From Isoetes taiwanensis (lineage: Eukaryota; Streptophyta; Lycopodiopsida; Isoetales; Isoetaceae): DNA of 64,000 nt. Positions 1-61,174 of the stretch are shown one piece after another (within the stretch, counting starts at the first letter, position 1; each line of letters begins with the position of its first letter). The translations under genes were made by a program, and so were the position numbers. The stretch is from contig JAJEKV010000028.1 in assembly GCA_021234155.1 (NCBI GenBank), forward strand, positions 16,310,469 to 16,374,468. The letters are read 5' to 3'. The notes below the pieces were generated by a model. The model saw only the letters and a list, made by a program, of their open reading frames with translations. It was not told the origin of the DNA and searched no databases.

Positions 1-217
1 TTATATAATATAAATATAATTTCTTTTGCACTTTAAATGTTTTTTTGATGTAACATATAATGCAAGAGAACAAATAAAACTGACCGTAAGGCCATGATCG
101 ACTTGTGTATGCAGCTAGAGGCCCAGGCTCAGGGGAGCAACAAGGCGAGACCGTAGGGAAGAACGGACTCCGCCCGGGCCACACCCGGCAAGGAACCTAT
201 ATGAGGCGTTTGGTGCC
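1..217 (+). mobile_element. 5' leader of Gypsy element (partial)
   Basis: This is sequence ahead of the gag start of the Gypsy element. It begins AT-rich and becomes GC-richer after about 100. Any 5' LTR would lie before the window. I could not match this stretch to sequence after the pol end, so no LTR pair is claimed. Confidence 0.4.
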
Positions 218-3052
218 ATGACTCCCGAGGAAGAAATGTCTCAGATGAGAACGGACCTTGAGCAAATAAAGACCTTCTTGGCAGCCCAAGGAGGAGTTGT
301 TCCAGATGGCAGTGTCCAGTTGCCCGAAGCACCACCTCAGAATACGAAGAAGGACAAGAGGAAGAGCAAGAGAAGGAGGTCCCCCAGTACGGAATCCTCC
401 GACTCAAGCTCGGATTCGGACTCCGACTCCGAAGAAGAGGAAGAGCAGGTGCAGAACCAAAGGGACGACAGACACAAGGACACGAGGACCTCAAACTATC
501 AGAAGAAGGTAGACTCAGCATTGGGGAATGTATGGAAGGCCAGGAAGCTCGAGCAATTCTCAGGCGAGAACAGGTCAGGCATGGAAGCAGAGGCTTGGCT
601 CGATGAGATGAGTGAGTATGGTAACGCCTATGGTATGAAGGACAAGGACAAAGGCAGGGTGGCAACAGCCAACCTTAAAGGAGCAGCACGCATTTGGTGG
701 AAGGGTTATGCCAAGGCCCATGGCTTAAGCAGGGATGGTTGCAGGTTCAAAATGTTTGCCAAGGCTTTCAAGCGCCATTACGTCCCAAGGGAACACAAGT
801 CCAACATGATGCAGCAGTTCTACAGGTTGCAGCAAGGAAACAAATCAGTCCAGAAATATACAGAGGAATTCATGAGACTAAGGCTTTATGTGCCGAAGTT
901 GAGTGAAAAGCACGCAGTGGAGAGCTATATTGAAGGATTGAATGAGGAGATCCGCAAGCTTGTAAGGGCAATAAACCCTAAGACGGTATCAGACGCAGAG
1001 TCCAAGGCAATAAGCTTGCAAGGAATGGGGCCTCAGAACAGCGGACAGAGGCAGCAGTATTACCAAGATAAAGGCAAGGCAACAGGGAGTTATAGCCCTA
1101 GAGCAGCAAGTCCAGGTCCAGCTAAAGCCCCATATAGTGGCAACCATGGGAAGCAGCAGGAGAGGAAGCAGATGTCCTTCAAGGACAAGCAGGAGGGGTC
1201 AAATTACTCCAAAGCAGTGCGGTCCTTCTTGCAAGCAATGCCCAAGAAGAAGAGACAGGAGTGCATAGAGAGACAGCTTTGCTTCAGGTGCTTCCAGCCA
1301 GGCCACAGGACAGCGAACTGCCCCTTCGTCATGAGCGCAGCGCTAGCGGAGTTAGGTGGATGGGACACTCCGTCTGACGACGACGTCGAGGCAGCACGCG
1401 ACTATATTCAGGGTGAGTGTCACATTTTTGCTGCCATAGATACAGAACAAGCAGATAATCAGTATAAGGTAATTTCCACAGTAGGGAAGGCCAAGGCCAA
1501 GTCTTTCATAGTCCTGATAGACTCGGGAAGTAGCCACAACTTTGCATCCCCAAGAATGGTTGAGATGTTGAAGTTGAAACCATTGAAGTCAAAGCCGAGG
1601 CCCGTAGTCTTAGCAAGTGGAGCAGTAAGGCAAACGGGAGGCAAGAGAATAAACTTCGACATCGACTTGCCAGGAATTAATATCCAGATGGGGGCAAAAG
1701 TAATGGGTATCGGCAAGTACGACTTGATCATAGGAATGGAGTATCTTGGACTAGCAGGGGCCATCATTGATTGTGGAAAGCGGAAGGTGACCCTCACAAC
1801 GCCCGACGGCAAGATCATTGAGATCATAGGTAAAGAAGTTGTTCCCATCATGCAGTGTATGTCTAGTAAACGGCTGCTCAAGTGCATCAAGAGCGAGCAG
1901 ATAGCATATATCTTCAAGCTTGAGATCGAGGAGGCCGAATCAGAAGAAAGCAAGGAAGATAAGGTGCTCAGCAAGTTGCCCAAGCAAATAGCTAAGTTGA
2001 TCACGGAGTTCCACGATCTCTTTCCAGACGAGATCGAGCACCTCCCTCCTTACAGGGGAGTCGAGTGTGAGATAGCACTCGAACCGGGAATGAAGCCGAT
2101 GAGCAAGGCTCCATACAGAATGACAACGCAGGAGCTGACGGAGCTAAAGAAGCAATTGCAGGAGTTGCTCGACCTAGGCTTCATTAGACCTAGCGTCTCA
2201 CCATTTGGGGCACCCATTCTCTTTGTCAAGAAGAAGGATGGCAGCTTGAGGATGTGCATAGATTATAGGCAATTGAATAAGCACACCATCAAGAAGAAGT
2301 ATGCGCTCCCCAGATCAGATGACTTGATGGATCAGCTCCAAGGGGCAAAAGTCTTCTCCAAAATTGACTTAAGGTCAGGCTATCATCAAATCCGGATAAA
2401 GGAAGAAGACATCCATAAAACTGCCTTCAGAACGCGGTATGGGCACTATGAATTCACGGTAATGCCTTTCGGCTTATCGAATGCCCCGGCAACGTTCATG
2501 AGGCTCATGAACGACATCTTCAGGGAGTTCTTGGACACCTTCGTGATAGTTTTCTTTGACGACATTTTGGTGTATAGCAGATCTCTTGAAGAGCACGTAC
2601 AACACCTAAGGAGAGTGCTGGAGAAGTGGAAGAGGCACCAGTTGTACGCCAAGTGCCACTTCGCAACGGAGAAGGTGGAATACCTGGGGCATGTGATCTC
2701 AACAGAAGGAATCTCGACGGACCCTGCCAAGATTGAAGCAGTGATTCAGTGGCCGGCACCAAAGAATGTCCATGAGGTCATATGTTTTCTTGGCCTAGCA
2801 GGGTACTACAGGAAGTTTGTGAAGAACTTCGCAAAGATAGCAGCCCCGCTAACGGACTTGACGAGGGCGGAAAAGGTGAAAGATTGGACAGATCATTGGC
2901 ACAAGAAAGCCCAAGCAGGGTTTGAATTGTTGAAGGAAGCTTTGACAACCGCCCCCGTCTTAACCCTGCCAGACTCAGAGAAAGACAAGTTGGTGGCGAC
3001 GGACGCAAGTAAGATAGCCACAGGTGCAGTGCTCATGCAGGAAGAGCGATAG
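218..3052 (+). CDS. Ty3/Gypsy gag-protease-RT polyprotein (5' part)
   Basis: The frame has 944 codons from ATG 218. Residues 45-95 are a basic, then serine- and acid-rich linker. About 105-280 is a retrotransposon Gag domain, followed by a CCHC zinc knuckle starting at Cys355 (CFRCFQPGH...C). The aspartic protease has its catalytic triplet at D435 (DSGSS). The reverse transcriptase carries FFDD at 779-782, where most relatives have Y(V/I)DD or YFDD. The frame stops in early RNase H ([12 protein letters not shown]) at a double TAG, and homology continues in another frame a few bases on. Gene order and the downstream chromodomain make this a Gypsy chromovirus. It encodes the capsid and replication enzymes of the element. 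The copy looks young because gag through RT has no stop. Confidence 0.9.
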
Positions 3053-4890
3053 TAGCGTATGATTCCAGGAAGATGAACGACGCCGAAACGCGCTACCCGA
3101 CGCACGATCAAGAATTGCTTGCAGTTGTCAGAGCACTAAGAATTTGGAGGCACTACCTCTTGGGAAGGAAGTTCCAGTTGGACACAGATCATCAGAGCCT
3201 CCAATATGTATTCACGCAACCACACCTTAACCTGAGGCAGCGAAGGTGGATGGAGTTCCTCGAAGAGTATGCCTTTGATATAGTCTATAAGCCGGGGAAG
3301 CTCAATGTGGTAGCAGATACGCTTTCAAGGCATCCTCTGACAACTAGAGTGCATTGCAATGCAATTTCGACGCTCTCCAACGACTTCGGGAAGAAGATTG
3401 AAGAAACCTTGCCAACAGATGTGGACTTCAAGGAAGTATGGGCAAGCTTGTGCAAGGAGGCAAGAACAGATAAGGAGAGGGAAACCTTCAAAAATTTTAA
3501 GAAGGAAGGTAATCTCTTGTACCATAAGAACAAGTTGTGCGTGCCTGAATCATCAGAGGTGAGGAAGTTGATTCTCCACGACACCCACAACAGTCCAATA
3601 GCTGGCCACGCAGGATTTATGAAGACATATTTCAAAGTGCGCAGCAGCTATTATTGGCCAGGAATGAAGAAGCAGGTAGCTTGCTACATCAAGGAATGTT
3701 AGCTATGTCAGCAGACGAAGGCGGAGCAGCTTCGAATTCCAGGGGCATTGGAACCATTAGCGGTGCCGAACGCTAAGTGGGAGGTCATCAGCATGGACTT
3801 CATAACAGGGCTTCCAAGGACAGTAAGAGGGAAGGATGCCTTGATGGTCGTGGTCGACAAGTTGTCGAAGATGACACATTATGTGCCTTGCAGGACCACG
3901 GACACAGCTATGGATACAGCGAAGCTCTTCACCAAAAAAATCTTCAGGCTCCATGGCATGCCAAGGGAGATCATCTCCGACAGGGATCCGAAGTTCATCA
4001 GCGCCTTTTAGCAGGACCTATTTGCAACAATTCAGACGAAGCCATCCATGAGCACGGCGTATCATCCTCAGACGGATGGGCAAACGGAGCGGACCAACAT
4101 AATTTTGGAGGACATGCTACGAAACTATGTCTAGAACAAGCAAGGTATGTGGGAAGAATTTATTCACTTGGTGGAGTTTGCGTATAATAGCACCAAGCAG
4201 GAATCATCCCAAATGTCGCCGTTTATGATCAACTACGGCTACCAATGCCTAACTCCAGACACTTGGCACAATCTCGTGTCAAAGGTAGAGGTTTCGCAGC
4301 AAATGTTGGCCGACATGCAGCAGCTGGTGGAAGAGGTTCGAGGATATCTTCTTCCAGCAAGGAGTCGACAAAAGAGCATCGCCGACAAGCATCGGACAAT
4401 CAGAGAGTTCCAAGTTGGCGACAACGTGTGGCTCAAGATCAAAGTGAAGCAGGCGAAGCTCCGCATCGAAAATTGTAAGAAGCTTGCTCCAAGGTGGGCT
4501 GGACCCTTCAGAATAGTCAAGAGAGTAGGTAATCAATCCTACAAATTGGATCTACCAGCACACCTAAAGATTCATAAAGTCTTCCACGTGAGTTTGTTGA
4601 AGAAGCATACTCCAAATCCAGATGAAGTCTTGGACACTCCAACGTTGTTGGAAATGACAGAAGAGCAGCTGGAAATAGTTCCAGAATTGATTCTTGATAA
4701 AGCCTTCAAGAAAACAAGGAGATTAGAGTTTCTCCAATATTTGGTCAAGTGGAAACACTTGCCGGTGGAAGACGCGACATGGGTACTTAAGAAGGATCTA
4801 ATAAAGCAGTACCCACAGTTTATGGAGCAATGGGACGGCAAGGTCATCTCCGAAGAAATCGGCTCAAGCATGTCGATTTGTGTAGATTAA
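3053..4890 (+). pseudogene. Ty3/Gypsy RNase H, integrase and chromodomain (3' part of pol)
   Basis: One frame (phase 1) carries the rest of pol. It holds the RNase H end (YDSRKMNDAE, DALSRHP-like DTLSRHP), the integrase zinc-binding region, the integrase core (DFITGLP, DRDPKF, an [12 protein letters not shown] block) and a C-terminal chromodomain near 4700-4840 (FLQYLVKWK, DATWV, YPQFMEQW). Against the upstream frame there is one shift near 3050. Inside this frame the only stops are TAG at 3700-3702 (in the zinc finger, before LCQQ), TAG at 4009-4011 (where W is expected before QDLF) and TAG at 4132-4134. The natural end is TAA at 4888-4890. The chromodomain suggests chromatin-directed integration, as known for chromoviruses. 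With these breaks the copy should not be autonomous. Confidence 0.88.
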
Positions 4891-9060: not shown

Positions 9061-9074
9061 AAAAAAGTTTTAAG

Positions 9075-9183: not shown

Positions 9184-10751
9184 TGTGACGTTCCAGCACA
9201 GTATACGGTCCCAGGACGTATACTGTACTGCCTCGTCACGCGTACACGCCAACCCGACTGACGTGTACGCCGACGTGTAGCCAAGCGGGTAGCCCCTAGG
9301 GGGGCAACTTGCAAGGTGTGTGCATCTATTAATGTGCACATTTACCAAGGTGCACATTTATCTAGGTGCACATTTTCCCATGTGGACCCTTATGCCACTT
9401 CATAAAGGCAAGTGGGCCACACCAATTATCCCACATGCTAAAAGGGGTAATTGGAAACCCTAGCCCTAAACCCTTGTCTATTTAGGTAAGAGAAACCCTA
9501 ACTTGCCATTTTAGGGCTCTGTTTTGCTTGCTCCAGGAGTCAAAACTGCCTCCCAGACTCTGTCTGAGCGAATTAGCTCGTTAGTTTCCCCCTCTAGCTT
9601 CATCTTCTAGCAGTTCAGCAGGATGGTCGAGTTCAGGGCAGGAGGAGCGAGCCAAGGATCAGGTATTTAGTCAATTTAATAGCCTAAACCGTCTTTCAGT
9701 CATTGAATCAGTAGGTTTAGCCTATTAAATTGCCCATAGCAGCCATCTAGATCCCTAGTTACTAAGCTCTAACTAAAGAACCTAACTCTATGATATAGAT
9801 TAGATCTAGTTCTTTAGTTCTTCTGTGATGTATATGGATGATGTATCTCTGTGAACTCATTGTATTGGGAAGGGGGGTAGAGACCCTAAGGCCTAGTAGT
9901 TGATGCTCCTAGCTAGCCTCTTTAGCACACTGTAAATTCGGCCTGTGTACAAGAACCACACCTGGTTGTGGGTGAAGGGGCCAGACTGGCTCATAAGGAG
10001 GTTCGTGTTCTGACTCTTGAACGTTCCCCCTGGTGTGTAAAGTCTATCGGGGATCACTGTGGACTAGGTCTAATGGCTTGCCACTGAGTGAGGGCAAGGC
10101 AGACTCGACACCCGTGGAGTGATGCGTCACTCTCCAGTGGGTTCAAGTCGAATAAGGGCAGTGGCCCTCTAGTCACCTCGAGTCAGCATGTAGATCTCTG
10201 GAGGGAGTGATCCCTACCTGCCCCATCGGAACTGGGGAGATGCAACCCAGGAATAGCCCCTTTGGCTATGCATCCGGCGGGCTACAGTCAGGTCCCAACA
10301 CTTTTCAACCTACTTTGCAAAGTGTGCACAGGAGGGGCGGATGAGTGGACTACCCTAAGCCATGTTCTCATGCCAGCCAAATCCATTGCCATGAATTCTG
10401 TATGCAATGAACTCTGGAGACCCAGACCGTCAGTCATCCCCCTTGAGTCTGAGCCTTGGGTAGGACTCCCACATGTGATGTGCTGATTTTGTCTATGCAG
10501 ATATGTAGTGAGCCATCCTTCGAGATGGTCGTGTGATGTTGTTGTTGTATACTGACATGTATGTTTACGCTTCCGCAGCTAGGTAGGCCCTGAAGGGAGA
10601 CAGGGTAAAATGACCCCTTCATTCTTCCCACTGGAACTTATCAAGGTTGCAGTGACACGTGGAGGGCCCTGTACCAGTATGGAGCTGGTATGGGGGATGA
10701 ACTCCTGTTCGTATACGGTGAGTGCACCGTATATGAGTAGGGGACGTCACA
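9184..10751 (+). mobile_element. Long terminal repeat (1,568 bp)
   Basis: The LTR starts TGTGACGTTCC and ends GACGTCACA, giving the perfect terminal inverted repeat TGTGACG/CGTCACA. A polypurine tract precedes it and no primer-binding site follows, so it is a 3' LTR of a truncated element. Bases 10214-10290 (CCATCGGAACTGGGGAGATG and following) match the minus strand of 54063-54145 at the same distance from the LTR end, so this family is also present at 53.6-57.5 kb. Three short GGTGCACATTT repeats lie at 9328-9375. The five bases on either side (GAGAA and GCTCA) do not form a clean target duplication. Confidence 0.7.
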
Positions 10752-14180: not shown

Positions 14181-17100
14181 ATGTTCAAACAATGGCGGAA
14201 GGCAACACAACTCGAATTGCTTGCTTGGCTGCAAGCCTCTGCACCCAAATTACTTAAGAGGCAGCTGGCTACTGAAAAATAGTGTGTTTCCAGCATGGAG
14301 ACCCGCCTATAACGACTTGAGGATGGCCTTCATCTAGTGCACTCTGAAAGGCAGAAAGACAAATAGAGTCTCATTGGCTTGCATGCTCGTATGGATTCCT
14401 TGTCCACCGCCATCGAAGCCATGATACAGGACATGCAATGTGCTGAGCAGGAGACAATGGTAACCATCTCCCGCCTTCGATCAGAAGCTGAGGAGGCTGC
14501 TACCGTCATGCAAGAGTGTAGGTCATCTTTGAAGAGAGCTAGTCACAATTGAGAGCCCTTCAAAGTAAGGTCGAGACACAAGAAGTGGCCTCATCCGCAG
14601 TGAACCCTATGCTGGACTCGCCTATAGAAATGGGAGCACGATTATGCAGCTCGAGATCGGAAGGTGCAGGCGCTATGGGCAGTCATCGCTCAATAAGGCA
14701 AGGGCCTCCATGCAGAGGCTTATGAGCAACTGCAGTAGTGCATGCGTGAATTGACAAGGCAGCAATAATTCTAGCAGGAGCTAAACTTATGGCTTCAGGA
14801 AGGAGAGACTAATACACCCGCCACGACAGTCCCACATGCCCAAAAGTCTGTATGATGTCAGCCAGGACCGCCCACTACTGCACCATCAAGCCGCCTTATG
14901 CCACCACCGACGCCCCACTGACAGCAAATAACACCCTCGTGTCAGGCAACATTGGCTCGATGATCAGAGAGCTCCATAAGCTGAGAGGAGAAGCCACAAT
15001 GTGGTGGTGCATGGCCTGATAGAAGAGATAAGGGAGGACCTCATTAACCAGCTCCAGGCGCTAGTCCTTGCTCGCATGACATTCCACATGCTGGTACAGA
15101 TTGTTAAGGTGAGCCCCATGGTATCCAGGGTTCAAACTGCCCCCATCCCCCCCGCAATCATATTCACAGTTCGGGACGCGCAAGTGAGAGCAACCATCCT
15201 GCATTAGGGCAGACGATTGAAGGGGACTGCCCTGTATATCGACCGAGATTTGACGCAGCACAACAAGAAGACCGCAGGCACGAGTTGGCCAAAGTTAAGA
15301 GCGTCTGCAGACAAGGAGGAGCTGCATGACTGATTTGGCCACAAGATGCAAATATTCAGGCCGCCAAATGTTACTGTGAATGCTGCAAACCCTCCAACAG
15401 CTCCTAACCATGCCCCTTCTACAGTCCCCCTTCTGCTGCTACCACCAAATCTGTAGCTATAGCCCCTGTCAATAAATAGAAATTGTGCCTCCGCAATGGT
15501 TTCCTAGAATTGTCGGGGCTTCCCATGGTAGAAGGAATATAGTCTCAACTCGATTGCCAGAGACATGGATCTCATCTTCCTCATGGAAACATAGGAGCAC
15601 ATAGGACACAGGCTACCTGACTTGCCAAGATAACAGTGCTACTCAGTCTTCAATGACTAAGCACATGAAAACGGGCGCATGGGAGGGTTGTCTGCTACTA
15701 CCGGACAGCCTTGGCACAGTCAATTTGTTCAAGATGGACAGGCACAACCGATACCTGTGGGTGCGCATGCAAAACTGCAGTAGCATACCTCTCTTTGTGG
15801 TAGCCTGCTACTTCCCACATGCAGAGAGCAACTTCTATCATACCCACTCAGATATGGGTAGGCTGGACTTCTATGTCGATCTATACGATGACATAGCAGC
15901 ACAAGCAGTTGGGCAATGTCATGCTCCTTGGAGACTTCACTACACGCGCTGGGGTAGAACATCCCATGAAATTTGATCCCTTGACTGATGATGTGTTTCA
16001 GCTGCATCCTGCAGAAGGAGCTTAGCCATGGGCATCATATAACAATCAGGTCACGCGTTATGGTATACAGTTGCTTTTCGCTGTAGTATCTTTAACCTGG
16101 TAATTTGTAATGGACTGACACAGTGGCCATCCTCTAGCAAGAGCACTTTCAGGCAGGAAAACTAGGGGGCGGATATAGTGTGATAGACTATGTGCTAGTG
16201 CCCTGAGCAGGATATGCATATCATCAAGTACTTTTAGGTGGAAACATATAATAGGGATGAAGAGGTCGACTTAGACCACCTATCACTTTAATTGCAGTTG
16301 GTTTGGCAAGTTGTGCGAACCCCCTGTGCGACAACTCCTGGTATGCCTCAACTGCAATTGAATTATGAACATGCAAGGGCTTATGCCCAGATGCTCATAG
16401 ATGACCTGGCATGAATATAGCAATAGACAAGCCAGCTTATTGACATGCCTATGACTGCTGCGGAAAGGCGCTTTGGGAGAAGCCACCCTCGCAGGGCCTC
16501 CGGGACCACAACCTTTCCACGTAATCAGTGGTTTGATGCGTAGTGCAAGGAACACAAATGCTGGCTCTACTAGGTCATAGACCCTGCTCTATGCCCAACA
16601 CGCGGTCAAACAGTACCGCATCTTCCTTAAAGGTAAGAAAGCCAGGTACAACGCAGCGCATCAAATAGAAATATTCTATCTCCTAGACAGTCACCCCAGG
16701 ACCTTCTGGTAAAGGCTTCTCAAAAAGCCAGTATAACCCACAGGGAATATCACTCTCGAGCAGTAGAGGCAATATTTGCAATATCTATACGACCCTTAGG
16801 GTGCACAAACAACATTACCCCTGCAAGAAGGTCCAGTGATGGAAATCACAAAGTCAGACGTGGACCAAGGCTCACAACATCTTGTCAATGGGAAAGCGCC
16901 AGACCTTGATGGTATGCAGGCAGAATTGCTCAAGTGGACAAGGCCATCCATAATACTGGTGATGACTTCCTCGTTCAACAAGGCATTATAGGAAGGCTTC
17001 CCACTGCAGTGGACCAATAGCAGAGTTGTTCCCATCTATAAGGCAGGTGACCCGCACTACCCAACAAATTACCGAACAATCATGGTCAGTTTGATGTTTA

Positions 17101-17830
17101 TAAAACTGCTAGTCGGGATTCTTGAGCAGCAGTTGACGTGTTAGGCAGAGGTAATAGAGGTGCGGACCCTCACCCAGGCAAGATTCAAGCCCCTGTACTC
17201 AACCATTGACCACATCTTCACATTGCGGACTCTGTTTGAAGATAGCAGGAACTGCCGATGGGACCTATATTGTTGCTTTGTGGACTTTGTGAAGGCCTTT
17301 GACACTGTGCCTCGGAAAAAGCTATGGGCAAGATTGCGATAATTGGGCTGTGTAGAATGCAATTTACAGGTTATATGAGACATGATCAGGCCAGTTGCAG
17401 TCGATGAGCCAACTATTCGATAATAATATTGGGGTCCCCCAGGGATGCCCTCTCGCTCCAACATTGTTTGGGCGTTATATTGATAAGTTGGAGAGCTGGC
17501 TTGCTGACAATATGGGCGACGGAGCTCACCTTCTGCACCAGATCATCAGGCGACTAATATATGCTGATGATGTGGACCTTCTAGCTTATACTCCAGCAGA
17601 CATGCAGTGCCATCTCGATGCCTTGGACACATTCTGCCAGGCAACTGATATGTGCGTCAACCTTGCCAAGATTAAGGTGGTCCTTATATCATCCTCGCGT
17701 CAGTCAAGGGGCCCTTTCTTCAGTTACCGGAGGCAAAAATGTAGAAGTGGCAACCACCTACAAATATTTGGGAGTGGAATTTCCGTCTAATAACATACAG
17801 TGGTTCTTCTACCTGTGCCAATAGAAGATG
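14180..17830 (+). mobile_element. LINE-A copy 1 (decayed non-LTR retrotransposon)
   Basis: The order ORF1-like, endonuclease, reverse transcriptase is visible in broken frames. About 14200-15450 is a decayed ORF1-like region. An APE-type endonuclease lies near 15500-16100 (an NCRGFPW start, then DMDLIFLMET, SIPLFVVACYFPHAESNFY, DLYDD). The reverse transcriptase spans about 17040-17790, with STIDHIFTLRTL, CCFVDFVKAFDTVPRKKLW, GVPQGCPLAPTLFG and the catalytic YADD (YADDVDLLA). Many stops and shifts make it inactive. The copy ends near 17830 without the family's 3' end, so it is also 3'-truncated or fused to other DNA. The family also occurs at 20.6, 48.9 and 63.76 kb. Confidence 0.85.
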
Positions 17831-20136: not shown

Positions 20137-20560
20137 TATATTGATGTATTCAAATCCTTCACTCAAGTTCACAAGCAAATTACACCAGATATATGAAAAG
20201 ACTACAAATTTCAAAGTCTAGACTATTACAATATGTAGGCACCCAAGCTCTTATAAGTTCTCTATGCATGAAAGATCACATGACACCATTATATATATCA
20301 AGATAACCATGCCGTATATGCTCTTATACGTTCTATGCACTTCAAAGATCACACACCTATTACAATATCTTGGCAAACCTTGACCACTCCATGCTACCCA
20401 CATCCAATCTTCTCTAACCTTTTGCCCAAGCCTGCACTACTGCTAGTTTTTTTTTCTTTGGGCTTGCATATGACACAAACTAATATTGAAATTGAGTTGC
20501 TTAGTGCAGCAAAGTAACGATCGGTCTGAACATTTCAAAACTTCACAAGTTGTATTCCGA
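20137..20560. other. Intergenic DNA
   Basis: No gene was recognised between the Mutator-type element and LINE-A copy 2. It contains two similar GCTCTTATA(A/C)GTTCTCTATGCA-like stretches at about 20250 and 20320. Confidence 0.4.
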
Positions 20561-23398
20561 TGGCAGAATGGAGATAGTCTCAACTCAGTTGCTGCCGATA
20601 TGGACTTTATTGTCCTCATGGAAATGTGGGAGCTGTAGGACATAGGCTACCCGACTTGCCAGGATACCAGTGCTACTCCCTCTTCAATGAGTGCACTAGA
20701 AAGAGGGGATATGGGGGGGTCGCCTACTACTACTGGACAGACTTGGCATGGTCAGTCTCCTTGTGCAAGACAGACAAGTATAATCGGTACATGTGAGTGC
20801 GTGTTCAGCACTGTAGTAGTAGCCCTCTCTTTGTGGCGGTCTGCTACTCCCACATGTAGAGAACTACTTCTATTACACCCACTCGGATATGGATAGGCTG
20901 GTATGTTGTTCTATATGATGACATCTAGCAACACAGGCAGTTGGGTAGAGTCATGCTTGTCGAAGACTTCAATGTACGCACTGGCACGGAACATCCCATA
21001 AGACTAGATCTCTTGGTTGACGATGTGTTGCAACTGCACCTTTTAGAAGGAGCTTGGCGTATCAGATGACAATCAAGTTATGCGATATAGTAGGCAGTTG
21101 TTATTGTTGTGCAGTATCTTTGACCTAGTAATTTGTAATGGACTGGTGCAGTGGCCGTCCTCTCGCAAGCACACTTGCAGGCAAGAGAACCGAGGGGTAG
21201 ATCTAGTGGGGTGGACTATGTGTTGATGATAGAACAGGACATGCATGTTGTCAAGCACTTCCGAGTGGGAACAGATAGTAGGGATGAAGAGGTGGACCAC
21301 CTACCACTCTACTTGTAACGGGCTTGGTAGGTTGTTCCAACCTCTTGTGCGGCACCTCCTCGCATGCCTCAGCTGTGACTGGACTATGAACACGTGAGGC
21401 GGACAGGCTGATTGACATCCTCGGGACTGCTGCAAAAAGGTGTTCTGGGAGAAGCTGCCTCGACGGACTATGAGAGCCATGACCTTTCCGCATAACCATT
21501 GGTTTGATGTTGAGTGCAAAGAACACAAATGCTGGCTCTGCCAGGTCAGAGACCCTAATCTATGTCTGCACGTGATCAGACAATATTGCCTTTTGCCTTA
21601 AGGCTAAAAAGGCCAAATACATCGTGGCCCATCAACAAAAAATCTTCTTCCTCCTGGACCGTCATCCCAGGATCTTCTGGGGAAGGGTATTTAGAAAACC
21701 AGTACATCCTATGGGAAACATCACTCTCGAACAGTGGGGACAATATCTGTAGCGACTTTATGACCCTTAGGGAGTACAAGCAGCACTACCCCTACAATAG
21801 GGCCCCATGTTGGAAATCACAGAGGCAGACACTGTCTAGCCAATGGATGGTATGCATGCGGAGTTGCTCAAGTGGGCATGACCATTTCTATAGTACCGGT
21901 GCTGACTGCCATGTTCAACAAGGCGCTACAGGATGGTTTTCTTCCATAGTGGAAAACTAGCCGAGTTGTCCCTATACAAGGCAGGTGACTCAGACTGCCC
22001 GGCTAATTATCGAACAATCATAGCCAGTTTGGTGTTTGTAAAACTGCTTGTCGGCATTCTCGAGCAGCAGTTAACATCTTAGGCATAGGCAACAGACATG
22101 CAGGCCCTCATGCAGACGAGGTTTAGGCTGCGGCACTCGACCATTGATCATATCCTCACATTGCAAACCCTGGTTGAGGACAGTACGAACCGATGCTGGG
22201 ACCTATGTTGCTGCTTTGTGGACTTTGCCAAAGCTTTTGACAATTGGGAGTGGTGTTCCCCTCTAGTATACAGTGGGACACTTCCATCTGTCTATGAGCG
22301 ATAACGGGCTGAAGGTGCTATATGGAATGCAGAACAACAATCATAGGCAGTTATATGGCTGGGCCCATGAGTCGCACATGTTCAAGGACTTGGTGGAGCC
22401 TGTCCTTTTATATAGGGTCGAGGTCTGGGGGCCCGTGGTGTCCCTCATACCTAGAATGACTCGGAGCATATACAGAAAGCCTTCTTGTCTCGGGCACTGG
22501 GGGTGATGTTTGTTTCTTACCCCTTCAGAGGGCAGGCCTGGATATCTTTCAGAAGGTGGTCACTATGGACGATGCTCATCTCCCTAGGCTGGCTTATACC
22601 GTGGCAATGTAGCCACAGTGTCTCAAGGCCTGTTGGAAGGAAAAGCGAGCTCAGTGGCTCGCCAGATGGAATGTGCAGGAGCGCAGGTGCATAGAGGTGC
22701 AAAGAGAGGCAGATTGCTACAGCTTGAGGCAGTAGCTTGATGCTTGCTTCCTCAACAAGCTCTGGGATGCCAGTGCTTTTAAACAGGTCAAGTCAGCACA
22801 TTACCAGCATCATGTAAATCTCTCATTGGAATGGGACCCGCAACGCTATCTACATACTCATTTGCTTATGAAAATGGACAAACTCATTACCTCTATTTGC
22901 ATGGGTGCACACCGTCTCCAAACTGAGACAGAGAGATGGATTGGAAAGTCATGGCAGGATAGGCTCTGTCGATGCTGTCAAATGAGAGCCGTTGAAGATG
23001 AATGCCATACCCTATAAGGCTATCCGGCGTATAACCAAATCTGGGCTTGCTATGTGGAGTTGGATAGACCTGGTCAACCGCTCACGTGATACTGAACACA
23101 GCTTCAGTTCAGATGCTAGGATGATACCTTCAGGAGGTCATGGATCTATGGGACTAACTATGTCCCTGGACACTCGTCTGCCTTGTATGGGTGTTATTGG
23201 ATATGCATATTTGTACAATTTGATAGCACGCTTATTATTACCATGGTTTTCGCCTCGAAAACCTTTCAGGAGGGGGGAAGGGGGTTAACCCGGACAATAA
23301 TAAGTCTTTTGCGCTCTCTTTTGGATTCCATAGGGCGATTGGTCTCCGTGGACGGTAAAGTCTCCATTTATTCTATTCTATTCTATTCTATTCTATTC
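20560..23398 (+). mobile_element. LINE-A copy 2 with intact 3' end
   Basis: This is a decayed copy running from the start of the endonuclease to the 3' end. Endonuclease pieces are at about 20580-21080 (CTRKRGYGGVAYYYW, DKYNRYM). RT pieces are at about 21980-22240 (STIDHILTLQTLVEDSTN, CCFVDFAKAFD); the segment holding GVPQGCPL and YADD has been lost. C-terminal remains run to 23200. The 3' end contains GGTCTCCGTGGACGGTAAAG at 23340-23359 and finishes in a (TTCTA)n tail. Numerous stops and shifts are present. Confidence 0.85.
23369..23398. repeat. (TTCTA)n microsatellite tail of LINE-A copy 2
   Basis: About six TTCTA units directly follow the LINE-A 3' end. The same tail motif is found at the tiny LINE-A insertion near 42650. 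Confidence 0.9.
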
Positions 23399-46115: not shown

Positions 46116-46714
46116 CGGCAAAAATATGTAATAAATGAGTCGGTGATGCAAAATATTATCTATAATGACATATGTTGATATTTGTGTTTTGGACTTGGAC
46201 ATTGTTTTCGTTGTTCGTCCTTGCTTTCGTTTATTGGTTGGCAAGATAGATAGGATGGAGCTAGTGTATAATAATAACAAAACATTCATCAATGTTTTGA
46301 GAAATGGTCGAGCAATCAATGTGGTTGTCACAAATATCACTAACACAGAAGTGTGTAGAAACTCATTTTTATACTTCATGATATCTTCTTAAAACCATTG
46401 AACAGGAACGTGATGTTTTTAGAACTACACCCTTACAGCTCTATGTCAAGCGGCGGGCTTCTACACTGCTCACTTTATTATAACAGTAACAACAATTAGC
46501 TCATAAATTCCAAATGCAGTAGGTTTGCAAGATATGATAAAATAGTAATGTAGAGTACTTTGCTACAAGAATGAGGGCCTCTTGATGACCTTTTAAAGGA
46601 GCCTATGGAGTTATGCCACGTGTCTTCATCAAGATCGTCCATCGTGGACCTTGCTAACGGCTCAACACTGCCGCCTCTCTTATAATACGCCTTACCTCCG
46701 CCATCGCCACGGCT
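46116..46714. promoter_or_regulatory. Upstream region of the 46.7 kb gene
   Basis: No gene was recognised. TATAATAC at 46681, 34 bp before the ATG, could be a TATA element, though a transcription start that close would leave almost no 5' leader. The rest is AT-rich. Confidence 0.3.
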
Positions 46715-47632
46715 ATGGCGAATCCGGCAACAAATGACCTAGGTTTTTTCAAATCTCCGCAATCTAAAGGAAGAAACTATGGATTCCGGCATCGGCCTTC
46801 AAAGCCAACCTGGAAATCATCCCTCGAAGTTCAGAAGAAAAATCTCAAAAGAAAGCCAAATCATCCCCTCAAACAGCACGCAGCGGCCGGGGCTTCTGGT
46901 ACTACCTATAATCCGCTAGGCGCTGGAAGTGTTTTCAATGATCCAGTTCGCCTTATGAGCGGTTCAAGGTATAATCGAAGGTTAGCATCTGGCAAATCCT
47001 TTAGAAGAAAGCAAAAATTCGTTCCCCCTTCTACCCCTACCACTCCGTTTGCTCCCTCTGCTCCAAGAAATACTTCTTCTTTCCTTATGCGTGCTAGAGC
47101 TGGTAAAATTGATTCTTTTGTATCTCCGGATCCGACCACTCCGGCAGTTCTTTCTACTCCAGATATGGCCGCGGCTCCATCATACAGAGAAGGATTAGTA
47201 GAAGAAGTCAATAAAAAATGGGGCGTAAATGGTTATGGTTCCATGAAAGGTTTGATTTGTCTTCGAAGGTCTGATAATATGGAAACGGAGGAGGAAGAAG
47301 GGGCAGAATATGGAGAAGGTGAATGCGATAGAGAAGAAGGGAGGTTGTTGCAGCCCTTAGATCACTGCTTGGATCAGGATTTAGCAAGGTTTGAAATGGT
47401 TTATCCTGGGTGCAAAACACTGGAAAATAATGAAGATTTGGCTGAGACAAAAATACAAGATGAGAAGAGCCACATTGAGCATCTGGAACGGGAGAATTTA
47501 CTGCTGAAAGAGAAATTAAGGCACATGCGTATGGAAGCAGAGCATTTACGCCAGCAGTTGGAAACCTTTCGTCAGGGAGAAAACAAAGATGAAGAAGTAG
47601 ATGGCTGCTCTGCAGATAGCACAGAAGAATGA
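46715..47632 (+). CDS. Unknown basic, proline-rich protein with C-terminal coiled coil
   Basis: This is an intact 305-codon frame from ATG 46715 (context CGGCTATGGCG). I do not recognise a named family. Residues 1-130 are basic, with SRYNRRLASGKSFRRKQKF and several S/T-P sites (STPTTPFAPSAP). Residues 131-160 hold SPDPTTPAVLSTPD, which looks like a phosphorylation-rich stretch. An EEVNKKWGVNGYGSMKGLI block follows. Residues 190-215 are very acidic (TEEEEGAEYGEGE). Residues 240-285 form a clear coiled coil (HIEHLERENLLLKEKLRHMR). Codon use and length suggest a real gene. A second frame stays open across the stop and into 47670 (IAQKNEEREVILNLYAKAK), so the true 3' end could differ by splicing. 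Confidence 0.75.
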   Translation: MANPATNDLGFFKSPQSKGRNYGFRHRPSKPTWKSSLEVQKKNLKRKPNHPLKQHAAAGASGTTYNPLGAGSVFNDPVRLMSGSRYNRRLASGKSFRRKQKFVPPSTPTTPFAPSAPRNTSSFLMRARAGKIDSFVSPDPTTPAVLSTPDMAAAPSYREGLVEEVNKKWGVNGYGSMKGLICLRRSDNMETEEEEGAEYGEGECDREEGRLLQPLDHCLDQDLARFEMVYPGCKTLENNEDLAETKIQDEKSHIEHLERENLLLKEKLRHMRMEAEHLRQQLETFRQGENKDEEVDGCSADSTEE

Positions 47633-48928: not shown

Positions 48929-50690
48929 GGAAGGAAGGAAGGAAGGAAGGAAGGAAGGTATTTTTATCGTCCACGAAGACCAATCGGTCTATGGGACCTA
49001 ATACAAAAGCGCAGCAAGCGGATTACTACCCGGATTAAAAAACCCCCGCCCCGAAGGGTTTTCGAGGGAAAAACCGTGGTAGCAATCAGTCTGCTGACAA
49101 ACTGTTCTAATATACGAAATACAAAGACACACAAATATATACACTCATGTACCGTACCCATAGTGCCCGATCGTGGCGGCCGGCGAGGCAAAGGTGGGCT
49201 CGCAGATCCAAGACCTCTCCCGAATGTACGCGACCCTAGGGGCACGTCTTGACGGTGTGTTCATCGGCAAATGTAGGGGCAAGTCCTACCGTACTAAGGG
49301 AACGACATCGGCCCCTGATCCGACCGAATCCTAGGCAACTCTGGAAAGTGTGAGACTCATCCTCAATGGCACCCTTTTGACAAAGACCGACAGAGCTCTG
49401 TCTGGCCCGGGCTCCCCACCACCCGCCCGTCTCGATGCGGAGATGGTGGGCATCTGTGCGAATGGAGGCAATGAGTCTGCGCTTTTTCGAGGGGCACCGG
49501 GAACCCGTGTAGAGTCAAGGGCCCCGCCAACGCTGGGTTGATGTGCTCCTTTGTAATGGGCCGTTTTGACCTCCTCGCTCTAGAGCAATTAGGGTCCCGA
49601 GCTTGCCAAGGAAGCAAGCGCCCAGAATTCCCACAAGCCGCCACGATCGGCCTCAGTGTCCACCGCGACGATCTCAGGCTTCCCGCGACGCCCATCCGGG
49701 CGAACCACCGATCTCTTATCCCTCCAACAAAGGCCCCGAGCCGCCAGCCCCATTGCCACAAATAGAAGCCGTGGGGAGCCGAGCATCACCCATATTAACC
49801 ACTTTCTCGAAAGTAGACGATGTGTCTATCAAGGGGGCTGCCCACGCCCGCAAGAATCCAGCTTCTGCAGCCGAATCCGATAGGGGGCCGAAGGTTTCAC
49901 CCCAAGTGCCCGTGCCCAAAATGCCTTACGCACTGCCTCCAAGTCATTCCAGTCCGCCAAAGAGACGACCGGGCCCCAAACCTCGACCCTCTGCATTTAA
50001 GGACAAAGCTCGACTAGTGCTTTCAAAAGCGGATGTGACCGATGGCCCCAATCATAGAGCTCACGCACGGTATTTGTTGTTCGCATGGCATAAAGCGCCA
50101 CCGTGTTGTCACCCGCAAGCGGATGGACGTCTCCCAACAGAGCGAGGAGGGGAACTCCACCCCGAGGTACTTGTAGGTGGGCGTGACCTCCACAGGCTGT
50201 CCTCGATATGTGAGTGCAGGAGGCGTGGGGTGGCGTGAAGAGGATATGAGAACCACCCTGATCTTGGCCAGATTCACGCGCATGTCTCAGAGCTGGCGCG
50301 TAATGTGTGTCTAGGGCATCCAGACGAGACTGCATAGCTTCTGGGGTGTGGGCCAGAAGGTCAACATTGTTCGCATAAATGAGCTGGCGGATGACCTGGT
50401 GCAAAAGCTGTATGCCATCCCCCCCATGCTCAGTAAGCCAGGGCTCTAACTGGTCAATGTAGAGGCCAAAAAGTGTTGGTGAGAGGGGGCAGCCCTGCCA
50501 GACCCCGATACTACTAGTGAATGCCTGGCCCGTCGGCTGCATCCTGCCAAAACAACTCTCATACAGCCTGTATATGGCATTCTGCACAGGCAGCGGCAGC
50601 CCCAGTTGACGCAGTCTAGCCCACAGCTTTTCCCGGGGGGTCGTATCGAAATAGGGCAAGGCACATGGTATTGACCATTGTAGCATCTAG
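48929..50690 (-). mobile_element. LINE-A copy 3 (5'-truncated) with (TTCC)n tail
   Basis: On the minus strand the copy starts inside RT and runs to the 3' end. RT pieces lie at 50686-50000: FDTTPREKLWARLRQLG, GVWQGCPLSPTLFGLYIDQL, and YANNVDLLA in place of YADD, so both catalytic aspartates are changed to Asn. The 3' region has the shared FPSKTLRGGGFLIRV-type translation and the signature GGTCTTCGTGGACGATAAAA, then (TTCC)n at 48929-48958. It is GC-richer than its surroundings and less decayed than copies 1 and 2. The plus-strand frame 49603-50238 is its antisense shadow. Confidence 0.88.
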
Positions 50691-51684: not shown

Positions 51685-53041
51685 CTAGTTGTGGTCTTCC
51701 CGAATCCTTCGGGCAAGAGCCAGATCCTTTGTTATAATGTGACCCTTTTGGCATGGATGGCACAAAGATTGGCATCCCCAAAAAGGATTATCAGGTAGGC
51801 CTCAGCATCCTCCTACAATGCCATTATGGCAAAGGTCTGGAACCGCAGATCGGTTTTGAACTCTTGGGCTATTTCTCAGACCAGACGCTGGAAGGGAAGC
51901 TTCCTTAGCAGCAGCTTGGTCGTCTTCTGGTACTTCCGAACTCTCAAGGCCACAGTGGTAGGCCTATATTGATGCGGCTTCTTTGGTGGCGCCGATCTCT
52001 GAGTCTGCGTCGGCTTCTTGGGCAAGGTCTTGCCCCCTGTTACCGGGCGAGGCCGGACTGCATCTACTCGGTCTTGCCGGTGGGCAGAGCTTGTTGCCTT
52101 TCCAATACTCCCAACGGCTTTCAGCTTCTCCTTATATGCACTCCCCGACTTATGGGCGATGGACTTCCGCCATCGCTTAACTGTAGGGGTCTCTGTCCAG
52201 TCGGGAGTGCGCTGGGTATCCTGCTCTGGATTTCGATGGGTTTGTTGCTGTTGATCTTGATTCTGTTTGGCAAGCTCCTCTGCTTGTCGTTGCTGCTCAG
52301 CCTTGTCGGCCTCTTGTTGCGCTGCATGAGCTGCTGCCATGCGCTCCTCTACCTCAGCGAGGCATCGGGCAGTAACCCTCCGTAGCAGCTCCGCATAATA
52401 GCGGTCTGGCCTGGCTTGCATGTCTAGTTGGATAGCTATCAAGTGGTCCACCGTTAGGTAGGAACCTCACCCCAAGCAAAACTTTGCGTGGCCTCATCAT
52501 ACTAGTAAGGAGGGAGGTCGAATGGGTTCCCTGCTATGATGGCTCTCCCATCCCCCAGATAAACATTTTTAAATCCCCGAATCTTTGAGTCTCCCCTCTC
52601 CATCTCCCGGGTGTCATCCTTGTGGGCAAGCTCTCGGATTCTGGCAGCTTCTATCCGAATGGCTTCTTCCTCGGCTACACACGAGGGCGGGTAGAACTTA
52701 ACTAGCATCAGAACTTGGCCGGGTTGTTCGGCCAAGGTGTAGGGTTGCTAGAGAAGATTAAGTTTTATCAGAAAGCACTCAGACAAGTGGAAGATGGGGT
52801 AAGGGATTCTATGCCCGGCGACAAAGCGTTGCACAAGCTCAGTCAAAAGTAGCTCTACTTTGGCAGGGTCGGTTGCGAGTTGCTCCCCAAGCTCGGCAAA
52901 GATTTGGGGCATGCTAAGACTGCCGTAGCTTTGGGTAGTGCGGGTATGAGCCATATTCATGGGAATGGAAAAAGGAAGGTGAGAGAGGAGGCGCTGGTAG
53001 TCAGGGGCATAGATCAAAGGCGGGGCAGGGCGCTCAAGCTT
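51685..53041 (-). pseudogene. Retroelement gag-position protein fused to a histone H3 fold
   Basis: The minus-strand frame opens at 53041, just after a stop; the first ATG is at 52960. The N-terminal part is unassigned (SYGSLSMPQIFAELGEQLAT; TELVQRFVAGHRIPYPIFHL). A TAG lies near 52746, another near 52502, and a frameshift near 52460. Then come [16 protein letters not shown], an A/E/Q-rich coiled coil ([20 protein letters not shown]) and a Q-rich linker. Still in the same open frame, an H3 tail-like segment follows ([17 protein letters not shown]) and the H3 fold: KLPFQRLV, stop TGA 51876-51878, EIAQEFKTDLRFQ, stop TAG 51813-51815, DAEAYLI, FGDANLCAIHAKRVTL, a frameshift, KDLALARRIREDHN and TAG at 51685. 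Canonical H3 starts with a short ARTKQ tail; here about 300 residues precede the fold. The fusion is in frame for 191 codons, so it arose before the breaks. Confidence 0.8.
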
Positions 53042-53601
53042 CTACTCCGGCGGCTATAGCAGACGGGCAAGGCAGGGCGCTAAGCAGAAGAGAAAAGCAA
53101 AAAAATAACCGTCACATTTTGTTTTAAATTCAATTTTTTTTTGTCAAAACTTAAAAAAAAAAAAAAAAGTATACGGAGGCGGAATACACGTTTTTTTATA
53201 TGCCAGGTGCCGCTGGATTTATACGTGTTTCTCTCTGGATTCTAAGTATAGCGGCGCCTGAGTAGGATTTTGGGCCCGTTTGCTGTCACTTCGATGCTGG
53301 GTGTCGACGTCCCTAGGGTAACTGGACCATGCCCGACAATTTAATTTGGTGCAAAAATCTCGTCCATCCGAGCTATCTTGAGAAAGTTATGACGCTTGGA
53401 ACATGCAAACCTCTTGTTTCACCATCTGAACCTACTTACCCTACTGGGAAAGACTCTCCTACTCAACTAATTTAATCCTCCCATAACTGGGTCAACCCAC
53501 ATGCCAACTACAGAATTGGGATACTTTAACCTAAGACAAAGTCCTGCCAACTAACGAGTTAGACTATGACCAGTGCAATGATTTGGTCTACCCAAAGTCA
53601 T
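53042..53601 (-). mobile_element. LTR-retrotransposon leader between PBS and H3 chimera
   Basis: This 560-bp non-coding stretch lies between the primer-binding site and the open frame of the chimera. It includes an A/T homopolymer near 53138-53168. It is consistent with an untranslated leader. Confidence 0.5.
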
Positions 53602-53613
53602 GCTCTGATACCA
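53602..53613 (-). mobile_element. Primer-binding site (initiator tRNA-Met type)
   Basis: The minus strand reads TGGTATCAGAGC one base after the LTR end CGTCACA. This 12-mer is the common plant LTR-retrotransposon primer site complementary to the 3' end of initiator tRNA-Met. Confidence 0.8.
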
Positions 53614-54451
53614 CTGTGACGCTCCCCGAATCTATACGATGCTCCCATCATATAAATACGGGAATTCCCCTCTCATGGCGACTACATCACTAGGGTCCGG
53701 CCCTCTGTCATACTCGAATCACTTGGGATGGCCAAGTGTCCGGGCGAGGAATACGGAGGTGGCATTCGTCCCACGTCCTCTATGGGAATCCTATATAGCG
53801 GAAGTAAACATACATGTTAGCATACATCAACCATGCTCAGAATAATATACCACCACGAAGGTGGCCCATCCATCATCATCATCAACGACTAACAATACAA
53901 TACCAACGTACATCATAAAGAACCTACCATAACAAGGGCGCTACCCTGGGCTCAGACTCCATGGGGTCAACTGACGGTCAGGTCTCAAGATATCAGTAGA
54001 CGGAAGTATAACATGAAGTTCGCTGGCATAGGGCAATGGCTAGATAGGCTGAATTATGCTATGATGTGGTTGTAACCTTCCGGACGCAATCCCATGGATT
54101 CACCCTATGAGACTACTCAGGTTACATCTCCCCGGGTCCGATGAGGCAGGAAAGGGATGAATCCCCTCCAGAATCACAATGGTTCCATGGGTGTGCTAGA
54201 AGATATGTACCACGAGGTGCATACGCATCCGTACCCGACTTACCCCCCTAAATCTACGCAAAGTCCAGGACGTCCATATAGGCACATTTCCTGTGACCCA
54301 GGCGGTGTCAGACCCATACCCGGCCCACACGTAGTGATCGACTATAAGCCTAGCACACGGTAGGAGCCCCAGTAGCCACGCTCAGCAAGGCATCCACCCC
54401 CACTTCACCAATTGTGTCCGTTATTTGGTGTTGAACCACATCATAGCGTTT

Positions 54452-54515
54452 GGTGGTCTCTTGTGCACAGGCCACAATTATTGGGTGGTCTCTTGTGCAC
54501 AGGCCACAATTATTG
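54452..54515. repeat. 32-bp tandem duplication
   Basis: GGTGGTCTCTTGTGCACAGG CCACAATTATTG occurs twice in a row without differences (54452-54483 and 54484-54515). Confidence 0.9.
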
Positions 54516-55066
54516 GGTTTTAAGGGTTTTAGCTAGAAACATCTCTAGTTCTAGGAACTTTTAGGTCTCTATCCTTTCCTTAACCCCCAATACATGGAAG
54601 GAGCAGAAAGAAAGAATATAAACACCATCAAAGTATCCATCATCATCATAATAATATATAAAGAGAGAATTTAACCATTCCATCTACTCAAAGAAGTGTT
54701 AGCGGAAATACAAGCTATCTAAGGACTAACCAGTCTCTTGGCTGGACCCATTATCTCGAAAGGCCTCCATTCTTCAGGTCTGTTTACAAGAACTGGTAGC
54801 TGTTCTTCCTCTCCTCTTCCCCAAATTGATTTTGGGGCGGAAATGGGGTAGGGCCCCAATTTCTCCTCAATTTGGCAAGTCCCAATTGGCCAATCGATTT
54901 GGGCCTGGTAGCGCTTTCCTAATAGCTTCCTTTAACTAATTATAATATAATTAGTCTAATTAGGTTATTTATCCACTAATATTTTTAGCATAGCTAATAA
55001 ACCCTTTCAGGTGGAACCCAAGTTATCTCTTATTGACCCTTAGGTATCTGGTTAGATATTGGTGAC

Positions 55067-58484: not shown

Positions 58485-60373
58485 TTTCCATCGATTTAGA
58501 TAAAGCTTCTTTCAACATATGGCCGTTGCTCCGGCAATTCATTTAATATGCCACGATTTCTCTTCAATACCTCATTGCTTTGTCATGTCTGGCGGTAGAT
58601 CTAAGGCCAAGAAAAAGATGTGTTCAAGGCTACCAGAAGCAAGCTTCAGTTCCCTATGGGTTGATTGGCAATGTAATTAAAGCAAGACAAATATGTCAAA
58701 CGCGTTGGCTCTTGTGCCATTATATTGGGTAAATGAGGTTAGAATTCTTTTCAGTTTGTTTCTTGATCTTTGAATTCTTTTCAATTTGTTTCTTGATCTT
58801 TGTTTTTAGAAACCTTTTAGATTTAGAATCATTTGTCTTCATAGTGACATGTGTTCATAGGTATGCAAAGGCCTGCTGTATAGATCAATTAGAGATCGTA
58901 GTAATTGGTGTCGCCTAATTTTCCATTCACTCTCCATATATATAGTGCTTCAATGTATGGTTCTGCCTGAGTTCCAAACGTTTTCTTTTTCATATTCCAC
59001 TCAAATTTATCTAGCTTTTCATGTGGCATTTGTGAGGGGAAATGTAAAGTTGCTCCTGTTGCAGAGATCCAGCACATGCGTTAAAGATCTTCAACCTTCA
59101 AAGGATGGAGGGAATTACAAATTTTCAACTAAAATACCAATGGAAAGGGATCAAACATGATATGTGGCATGAGATCCACTGGCTTCCATGGAAGACCTCA
59201 ACCCTTATTAGCAGTTTGTTTCTGTCAGCAAACATTTTATTGCTTTATTTTTCGAAATTGGAATCACATCAAAAGTCACACTTGCAAGCAACTTAGATTC
59301 AAGAAATATGAATTCTGGGCGGAATAATACTATTGCTTTTACAGATGTCATGGGCGCATTCAATAGATAGGATGATGTTCTGAGTTGCAAGGAATTCTAG
59401 CAAAAACATGCAACCTTGTTAAAAGATGTTTCAAGATCTCCCAACTTGCAGGATCCTGATCTGCTCTCTTGCGATAAACTGAAGCTAAAGCATGTCTCAA
59501 TTTCGGTGAAGTCATGGACATTCATGTCGTTGTGGACTGACTTGCATGTGGACAAAATCAACTATGCTTGCAGATAACCCTGAGGCTCTTCTTTACAAAT
59601 TGCACAACCCTCCATTTCTTTTATTTTATTATGTGCTTTCATCGATTTGGATGAATCTTTTTTTCATCACAAAGCCATTGCTCTGGCAGTTCGTTTAACG
59701 TGCCAAAGTTTCCCTTCAATATCTCAATTCTTCGTCATGTCTGACAGGAAATTTAAGGCCAAGAAAAAGATGTGTTCAAGACTACCAGAAACAGGCTTCA
59801 GTTCCCTGTGGGTTGATTGGAAAGGTACTTCAAGCATGGCAAATATGTCAAACGCGTTGGCTTTTGTGACAATATATTTGGCAAATGAGGTTCGAATTCT
59901 TTTCAATTTGTTTCTTGACCTTTATTTTTGGGAACCTTTTAGATTCAAGATGTAGAAAGAATGGGTTTTCATAGTGACGTGATGTATTCATAGGCATGCA
60001 AGGTCCTGCTGTATAGATCAATTACAGATCGTAATAATTGGTGCCACCTAATTTGCCATTCATTGTTTATATATACAGTGCTTCAATGTATGGTCTTGCG
60101 TGAGCTCAGACTGCTTTTTTGCCATATGCCACTCAAATTTATCTAGCTTTTCATGTGGTATGTGTGAGGGGAAATGTAAAGTTGTTCCTACTGTTTGCGG
60201 AGATCCAGCACATGCTTTAAAGATCTTCAACCTTCAAAGGATGGAGGGAATTACAAATATTCGACAAAAATACCAATGGTAAAGAATCAAGCATGATACG
60301 TGGCATGAGATTTACTGGCTTCCACGGAAGACCTCAACCCATATTTGCAATTCAATAGATAGGATGGTGTTCT
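58485..60373. repeat. Diverged tandem duplication (58485-59378 and 59630-60373)
   Basis: Two plus-oriented copies about 1.15 kb apart share several blocks: CATCGATTTAGATAAAGCTT / CATCGATTTGGATGAATCTT, GGCCAAGAAAAAGATGTGTT, CAAACGCGTTGGCT and ATAGATAGGATG(A/G)TGTTCT. The second copy lacks about 110 bp present in the first near 59215-59345. A short frame is kept in copy 2 (59647-59955, ...KFKAKKKMCSRLPETGFSSL) but broken in copy 1, so an old coding origin is possible. Confidence 0.75.
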
Positions 60374-60812: not shown

Positions 60813-60931
60813 CAATAAATGCCAAATAGTAAGAGGCTTCTAGAGATCGTTAACCTTTGGGTTAAATTGGATGTCAACCTGTGGAGGCATCATATGTAAC
60901 TATTGGATAAATAGCTTTGAGGGTTTAGGTC

Positions 60932-61053
60932 TAATTCGATGCAACACGAAGAACCTTACCAGGGCTTGACATGCCTTCCCTTGAGAGAGAGGAGTGCCTT
61001 CGGGAACGCGGACACAGGTGGTGCATGGCTGTCGTCAACTCGTGTCGTAAGGT

Positions 61054-61085
<32 letters not shown>

Positions 61086-61091
61086 GTGCTT
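60932..61091 (+). pseudogene. Plastid-type 16S rRNA fragment (nuclear insertion)
   Basis: About 160 bp match bacterial/plastid small-subunit rRNA around the helix 34-37 region: TAATTCGATGCAACACGAAG, AACCTTACCAGGGCTTGACA, GGTGCATGGCTGTCGTCAAC, AAGTCCCGCAACGAGCGCAA. Differences at normally invariant positions (e.g. GTCAACTCGTGTCG for GTCAGCTCGTGCCG, and a lost T in GGTTTGGGTTAAG) show it is not a working gene. The flanks are unrelated, so this is a small fragment of organelle DNA in the nucleus. Confidence 0.85.
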
Positions 61092-61174
61092 AAGCTGAGA
61101 CCGTACCGATTCGTATAGAACCAGCACAACCTGGCCATCAGATGCCTAGTCAAAATCACTAACTTCATAATGTT

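Follow-up and report, generated by a model that had tools for sequence, protein, structure and literature searches.

The minus strand of a 64,000-nucleotide stretch of the Isoetes taiwanensis genome (the window, G000:C1032:16310469-16374468) carries, at 51685-53615, a decayed copy of a family of chromodomain Ty3/gypsy LTR retrotransposons whose first open reading frame (ORF1) ends at its C-terminus in a histone H3 core. Copies of this family are numerous, share an architecture and the junction in front of the H3 core, occur between paired LTRs and have evolved under purifying selection. A second H3-bearing lineage, which a preliminary description of this DNA did not include, shares the window; the two are termed type A (the relic and its relatives) and type B. 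It is considered rather probable that a chromodomain Ty3/gypsy lineage captured a host H3 long ago and that ORF1 is a tail-inserted H3 that docks on host chromatin. Core histones normally belong to the host, and hundreds of copies keeping an H3 under strong selection would represent a parasite acting on the nucleosome itself.

The window relic and its relatives

The preliminary description reported a minus-strand relic ending in an H3 fold, and database searches agree: with stops read as X, the residues encoded from about 52040 to 51740 (-) match the Pfam Histone family at E=2e-25 and H3.3 in the PDB at E=3e-38. The LTR end and tRNA-Met-type primer site that it placed upstream were also located (Table 1). 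The junction lies, as described, within one open stretch, which measures 196 codons from stop to stop (52466-51876) and runs from the linker through the H3-tail remnant into the beginning of the H3 core; the upstream frame at 53041-52502 is open except for a single internal TAG. Stops and frame changes interrupt the window ORF1, the stops lying at the positions previously claimed. The H3 part contains an in-frame TGA, TAG and TAA, and the final residues, ARRIREDHN, lie in another frame with a stop at 51687-51685. The LTR relic aligns at 69% with positions 87-1547 of the LTR of copy L013, which has a matching 3' LTR, and the same primer site lies behind the LTR in L009, L013, L017, L023, L025 and L022. 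The nearest relative of the window relic is L025; the alignment between the two stops at 51596, and the window copy therefore lacks ORF2, gag and pol.

Table 1. Coordinates of H3-element features within the window
Feature	Position	Strand	Remarks
5' LTR relic, type A	53615..55015	-	3' end GCGTCACA at 53615; 5' end not found
iMet-type primer binding site TGGTATCAGAGC	53602..53613	-	one base past the LTR end at 53615
ORF1 start MAHTRTT, counterpart of H3 tail tip MARTKQT	52934..52954	-	by sequence comparison
ORF1 N-domain relic (insert, no known family)	52370..52954	-	homologous to L013 N-domain; stops and one frame change; lower end approximate
ORF1 coiled-coil/Q-rich linker, remainder of insert	52041..52369	-	limits approximate
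H3 tail remnant and H3 core relic	51685..52040	-	TGA, TAG, TAA, late frame change
Post-ORF1 stretch still alignable to L025	51596..51684	-	element homology ends at 51596
Type B gag-protease-RT-RNaseH-integrase-chromodomain	119..4890	+	several frames; Pfam matches
Type B 3' LTR, TGTGACG...CGTCACA	9184..10751	+	10013-10752 94.9% identical to L052:1-717

Further copies were sought in the Isoetes taiwanensis assembly (1,658,258,908 bases in 1,110 contigs), of which Gypsy elements make up 10.7% according to the available part of PMC8566536. With the 196-residue open stretch as the query, the best 150 of 4,588 loose candidates were scored, which makes the resulting counts lower bounds; all 150, the window included, are relatives matching at E<=2e-47, and the other 149 are 48-86% identical to the query. 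The junction between linker and H3 core, first described in the window, is common to 131 of these 150 loci (window included; matches reaching at least query residue 187), and the matches of the other 19 end at residues 129-184, short of this cut-off. A second search used plant H3 as the query and scored the best 150 of 9,064 candidates, again giving lower bounds. Fifteen of these, at 96-98% identity, were treated as host H3 genes, and three of them were read. The remaining 135 show 71-86% identity, 51 of them in open frames of at least 400 codons; not all are confirmed elements, and they may hold other H3 genes, as a few cover the H3 tail. The type A core motif FAILALQEA, which most of the type A cores read contain and the three host H3s read lack, is encoded 685 times genome-wide (reversed-pattern control, 0). 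Two queries against viral contigs gave no confirmed relative.

Structure of the two H3-bearing lineages

Thirty of the 150 loci, picked mainly for long open frames, were fetched, ten with about 10 kb on each side and twenty with about 3 kb in total. LTR-paired type A copies have the order LTR, iMet-type primer site, ORF1 (H3), ORF2, gag-pol with chromodomain, and LTR. Pfam domains 3' of ORF2 run Ty3_capsid/Retrotrans_gag, aspartic protease, RT, RNaseH, integrase, SH3_Tf2-1 and Chromo, an order assembled from L010, L016 and L018. The preliminary description had placed the H3 protein in gag position; in LTR-paired copies, ORF1 instead precedes a separate ordinary gag. ORF1 itself matches no gag family in Pfam, Ty3_capsid and Retrotrans_gag lying in the downstream ORF.

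The LTR pairs looked for around complete copies are present, with both boundaries and 5-bp target duplications readable in two of the ten long-flank copies, L013/L014 (CTAGC) and L017/L018 (GTTAT). In both, the LTRs read TGTGACG...GCGTCACA, the primer site lies one base behind the 5' LTR and a purine tract precedes the 3' LTR, so that the chromovirus combination of TG...CA pair, tRNA primer site and 5-bp duplication is complete. The LTRs of the two full pairs have diverged by 0.038 and 0.057, and a part of the L009/L010 pair by 0.027. Partial pairs occur in L009/L010 and L027/L028, a nested inverted copy in L015/L016 and shorter repeats in L021/L022 and L023/L024; no LTR pair was detected in the long-flank copies L011/L012, L019/L020 and L025/L026. 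Both types have the ordered gag, protease, RT, RNaseH and integrase and the C-terminal chromodomain of chromoviruses (Ty3/gypsy). Judged by sequence, two of the three aromatic cage residues appear to be missing from these chromodomains, at the positions presumed for the cage. The Tcn1 clade is disfavoured since type A has an iMet-type primer site, which Tcn1 elements mostly lack according to the available part of PMC6317226.

ORF2, located between ORF1 and gag, has no Pfam match. A second conserved ORF ahead of gag and without a Pfam match is seen in both types (L016:1-1425 in type A, L052:3323-4279 in type B); kinship between the two was rejected, as their match is only weak (E=0.006). The region of L015 and L016 (G000:C1033:2791491-2811490) contains a long inverted repeat of H3-element sequence (about 4.9 kb, 94%) next to another copy, and L039 is located about 20 kb away on the same contig.

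Type A ORF1 was compared across 37 distinct copies (the 30 fetched, the window copy and six more from the junction search), eight of which retain it uninterrupted from MA... through RIRG. These intact ORF1s have 413-430 residues, with L015 extending to 462, and consist of an N-domain of about 195 residues, a linker of about 110, the tail remnant and the H3 core. Readable starts number 29, namely 35 N-domain matches near the start minus two duplicates and four without a readable start. Their consensus, MAxTKxT, corresponds to MARTKQT of H3, with M in 29, A in 29, T in 20, K in 25 and T in 27 of the 29 at positions 1, 2, 4, 5 and 7, respectively; R at position 3 and Q at position 6 are mostly substituted, R being kept in L006, L007 and L030. 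These counts indicate that the tail tip has been kept and is followed by the insert. By its appearance, ORF1 is an H3 into whose tail about 300 residues of an origin other than H3 have been inserted. A large insertion inside the H3 tail is a better description than the earlier account's H3 fused to a retroelement protein. The N-domain of L013 gave nothing above the Pfam cut-off (best E=0.04) and a single PDB match at E=0.75.

The H3 fold of type A is recognized by Pfam at 2.8e-41 in L013, and alignment of the 21 copies with a complete core gives a majority residue identical to host H3 at 84 of 97 positions. The substitutions S57T, S86T, S87F, V89I, G102A and I124L occur in all 21 cores, T107A and Q125A in 20 and Y41F in 19, and S, G or V takes the place of E105. 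Type A has lost the K9 and K27 contexts, only the tail tip and remnant being left, and neither type has the complete canonical tail ARTKQTARKS...ARKS. In an H3-core tree of 20 rows, which is rough because human CENP-A also falls within the canonical-side group, type A lies on the canonical H3 side with moderate support (91/88) and type B on its own branch, not grouped with CENH3.

For type B, the window begins at L052:5001. The 5' LTR end (L052:1-717) lies upstream of it, and ORF1, with one frame change, is located just upstream at L052:1412-2712. ORF1 starts with MARTKQTARVRRP (MARTKQTAR) in L052, MARTKQTARKARPG (MARTKQTAR) in L055 and MARTKETARKPRPG (MARTKETAR) in L053, and the open frame of L054 has no MARTK-type start, so the MARTK(Q/E)TARK start is found in two of three further copies. 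The ARTKQTARK-like tip, in which L053 and L055 retain K9, is followed by an insert of about 340 residues, and ORF1 ends in a diverged H3 core (Pfam, 8.8e-24; PDB H3, about 1e-23). When the larger L052 ORF1 open frame was used as the query and the best 115 of 18,631 candidates were scored, 110 of the 115 reached at least residue 346. Some 4.3 kb (4890-9184, +) separates the end of the type B chromodomain ORF from the 3' LTR; in this interval, the L026 alignment breaks between 5681 and 9075.

The type B core has the CENH3-type alpha-1 start LIPxAPF (as LIPRAPF) and a VTLMRKD-like motif, matching the two plant CENH3 sequences used for comparison. The MARTK start, LIPxAPF-like motif and VTLMRKD motif of type B are all presumed to be shared with plant CENH3. 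Unlike plant CENH3, type B has no two-residue insertion lengthening loop 1, shares slightly more residues with host H3 (51/97 identical) than with the two plant CENH3s (47/99 and 48/99) and carries the large insert. Loop 1, the identity counts and the separate tree branch argue against a CENH3 origin, and type B as a plain CENH3 was rejected. Canonical residues around RKLPF are lost from the type B core, which makes its nucleosome-forming ability less sure.

The genome has 1,888 exact MARTKQTAR starts, compared with 0 for the reversed control and 0.006 expected by chance; host H3 genes are included in this count, and few of the starts are tied to elements. Seventy of them, when listed, show 42 spellings. 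Seven type B loci lie on contigs covered by the listed starts, and four of these have MARTKQTAR 0.2-0.5 kb upstream. One identical spelling is common to seven of the 70 (e.g. G000:C84:28041), perhaps marking a further recent family.

Selection and age

Purifying selection acts across copies, most strongly on the H3 core; together with the shared junction and the LTR pairs, and with the corrections given above, this supports the preliminary reading. Nei-Gojobori comparison of the eight intact type A ORF1s (28 pairs) gave a dN/dS of 0.05 for the core, 0.13-0.17 for the N-domain, 0.15-0.17 for the linker and 0.26-0.30 for the tail remnant (ratio of means, median); intact copies are favoured in these values, pairs are non-independent and distances are near saturation. 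A second set was calculated against single references, with stop-free matches (unsaturated, dS >0.1) kept apart from matches with stops and the remainder dropped (16 of 36 for the core). Stop-free matches gave 0.043 for the core (18 matches), 0.136 for the N-domain (9), 0.10 for type A ORF2 (9) and 0.19 for gag-protease (4), with none for RT-RNaseH. Matches with stops gave 0.047 for the core (2), 0.326 for the N-domain (4), 0.137 for ORF2 (6), 0.305 for gag-protease (2) and 0.179 for RT-RNaseH (5). In type B, dN/dS is 0.044-0.097 for the core and 0.19-0.26 for the insert (6 pairs). Synonymous sites between type A and host H3 are saturated (pS 0.85-1.10), so the H3 capture is probably old, a conclusion weakened by host H3 genes being nearly as distant from one another (pS 0.67-0.84).

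Possible roles of the ORF1 protein

The ORF1 protein most likely serves as a chromatin-docking H3 variant. Delivery to chromatin, the function put forward in the preliminary description, is likewise putative. The kept fold and strong constraint suggest that the H3 core would pair with host H4 and either become part of host nucleosomes or dock on them or on histone chaperones. Through the insert, which would sit where the histone tail projects from the nucleosome and thus form a natural handle, the particle, integration complex or DNA of the element could then be tied to chromatin. In type A, the absence of the K9 and K27 contexts might make chromatin harder to silence by sparing it transposon-silencing marks; because K9 is kept in type B copies L053 and L055, the two lineages do not share the loss of these lysines. 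It is possible, if somewhat doubtful, that the elements' own H3 variants enter host nucleosomes and there steer integration or make chromatin immune to H3K9/K27 silencing, type A without the silencing lysines and type B with a full tail tip and a CENH3-like core. Docking is tempered by the weaker N-domain constraint in copies with stops (0.326, 4 pairs) and by the core constraint, which would also fit packaging of the element's own DNA. Such packaging, in which the ORF1 protein would condense cDNA or RNA of the element inside the particle or the preintegration complex and, like a viral histone, stay out of host nucleosomes, agrees with ORF1 being the first ORF behind the 5' LTR, next to gag, with the established DNA binding of the H3 fold and with the precedent of giant-virus histones. 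It is nevertheless unlikely, as the near-canonical type A core, which keeps what are taken to be the H4- and DNA-contact residues, seems more than this role would need.

The abundance and varied spelling of MARTKQTAR starts, together with the K that 25 of the 29 type A starts have at position 5, could also reflect selection on the ARTK/ARTKQTARK tip as a mimic that occupies host H3K4/K9 readers or writers and disturbs silencing, with the core as an anchor; this is improbable given that constraint is strongest in the core rather than in the tail remnant and that most of the 1,888 starts are not tied to an element. That the H3 is an unselected passenger, acquired by gene transduction or as a retropseudogene beside an unrelated frame, has very little credibility. 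The window copy is decayed and transduction by LTR elements is known (available part of PMC7264820), but the junction recurs in 131 of the 150 scored loci, and diverged copies keep an uninterrupted ORF1 with a core dN/dS of 0.05. The shared junction and the selection test refute the retropseudogene reading. A LINE-type retrocopy with a flanking duplication was likewise rejected; a comparison of 53300-53000 with 51690-51350 for repeats of 9-20 bases revealed only two imperfect A-rich 12-mers.

Giant viruses and bracoviruses are genetic parasites that use a histone or histone-like protein. The hepatitis delta antigen is reported to mimic histones (PMC6972770). Unlike these viral histones and mimics, the present H3 is carried by an LTR retrotransposon and is interrupted in its tail by a large insert. 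The plant chromoviruses in the available parts of PMC6317226 and PMC2864245 likewise have TG...CA LTRs, an iMet-type primer site and the gag-protease-RT-RNaseH-integrase-chromodomain order, to which the H3 elements add two ORFs before gag, the first ending in the H3 core. Other plant LTR retrotransposons also carry a conserved extra ORF, which more frequently lies between pol and the 3' LTR (PMC7264820), and orchid Gypsy elements have one with a captured host-type domain, a 2-ODD demethylase (PMC9289625); in the available parts of both papers, histone is not among the domains named. No retroelement with a core histone was found among the matches listed from open-access journal literature or in the available parts of PMC7264820, PMC6317226, PMC9289625, PMC5408684, PMC10541799 and PMC2864245. 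The ORF1 proteins would be natural H3 variants with a whole domain in the tail that may show which H3 residues a selfish agent must keep, and they suggest a targeting or silencing-escape route besides the chromodomain.

The window contains several other features. A fragment at 60929-61140 (+) resembles bacterial-type small-subunit rRNA (Rfam, 87 bits) and is perhaps an organelle insert. The open frame at 49997-50686 (-), adjoining the broken end of the relic, is presumably LINE-type reverse-transcriptase-like, and those at 12259-13515 (-) and 46658-47632 (+) resemble what are taken to be a chloroplast ATP synthase gamma subunit and a POLYCHOME-like protein, respectively. Direct repeats pair 15520-17304 with 20555-22242 (about 1.8 kb, 72%) and 58486-59216 with 59637-60352 (about 0.7 kb, 82%).
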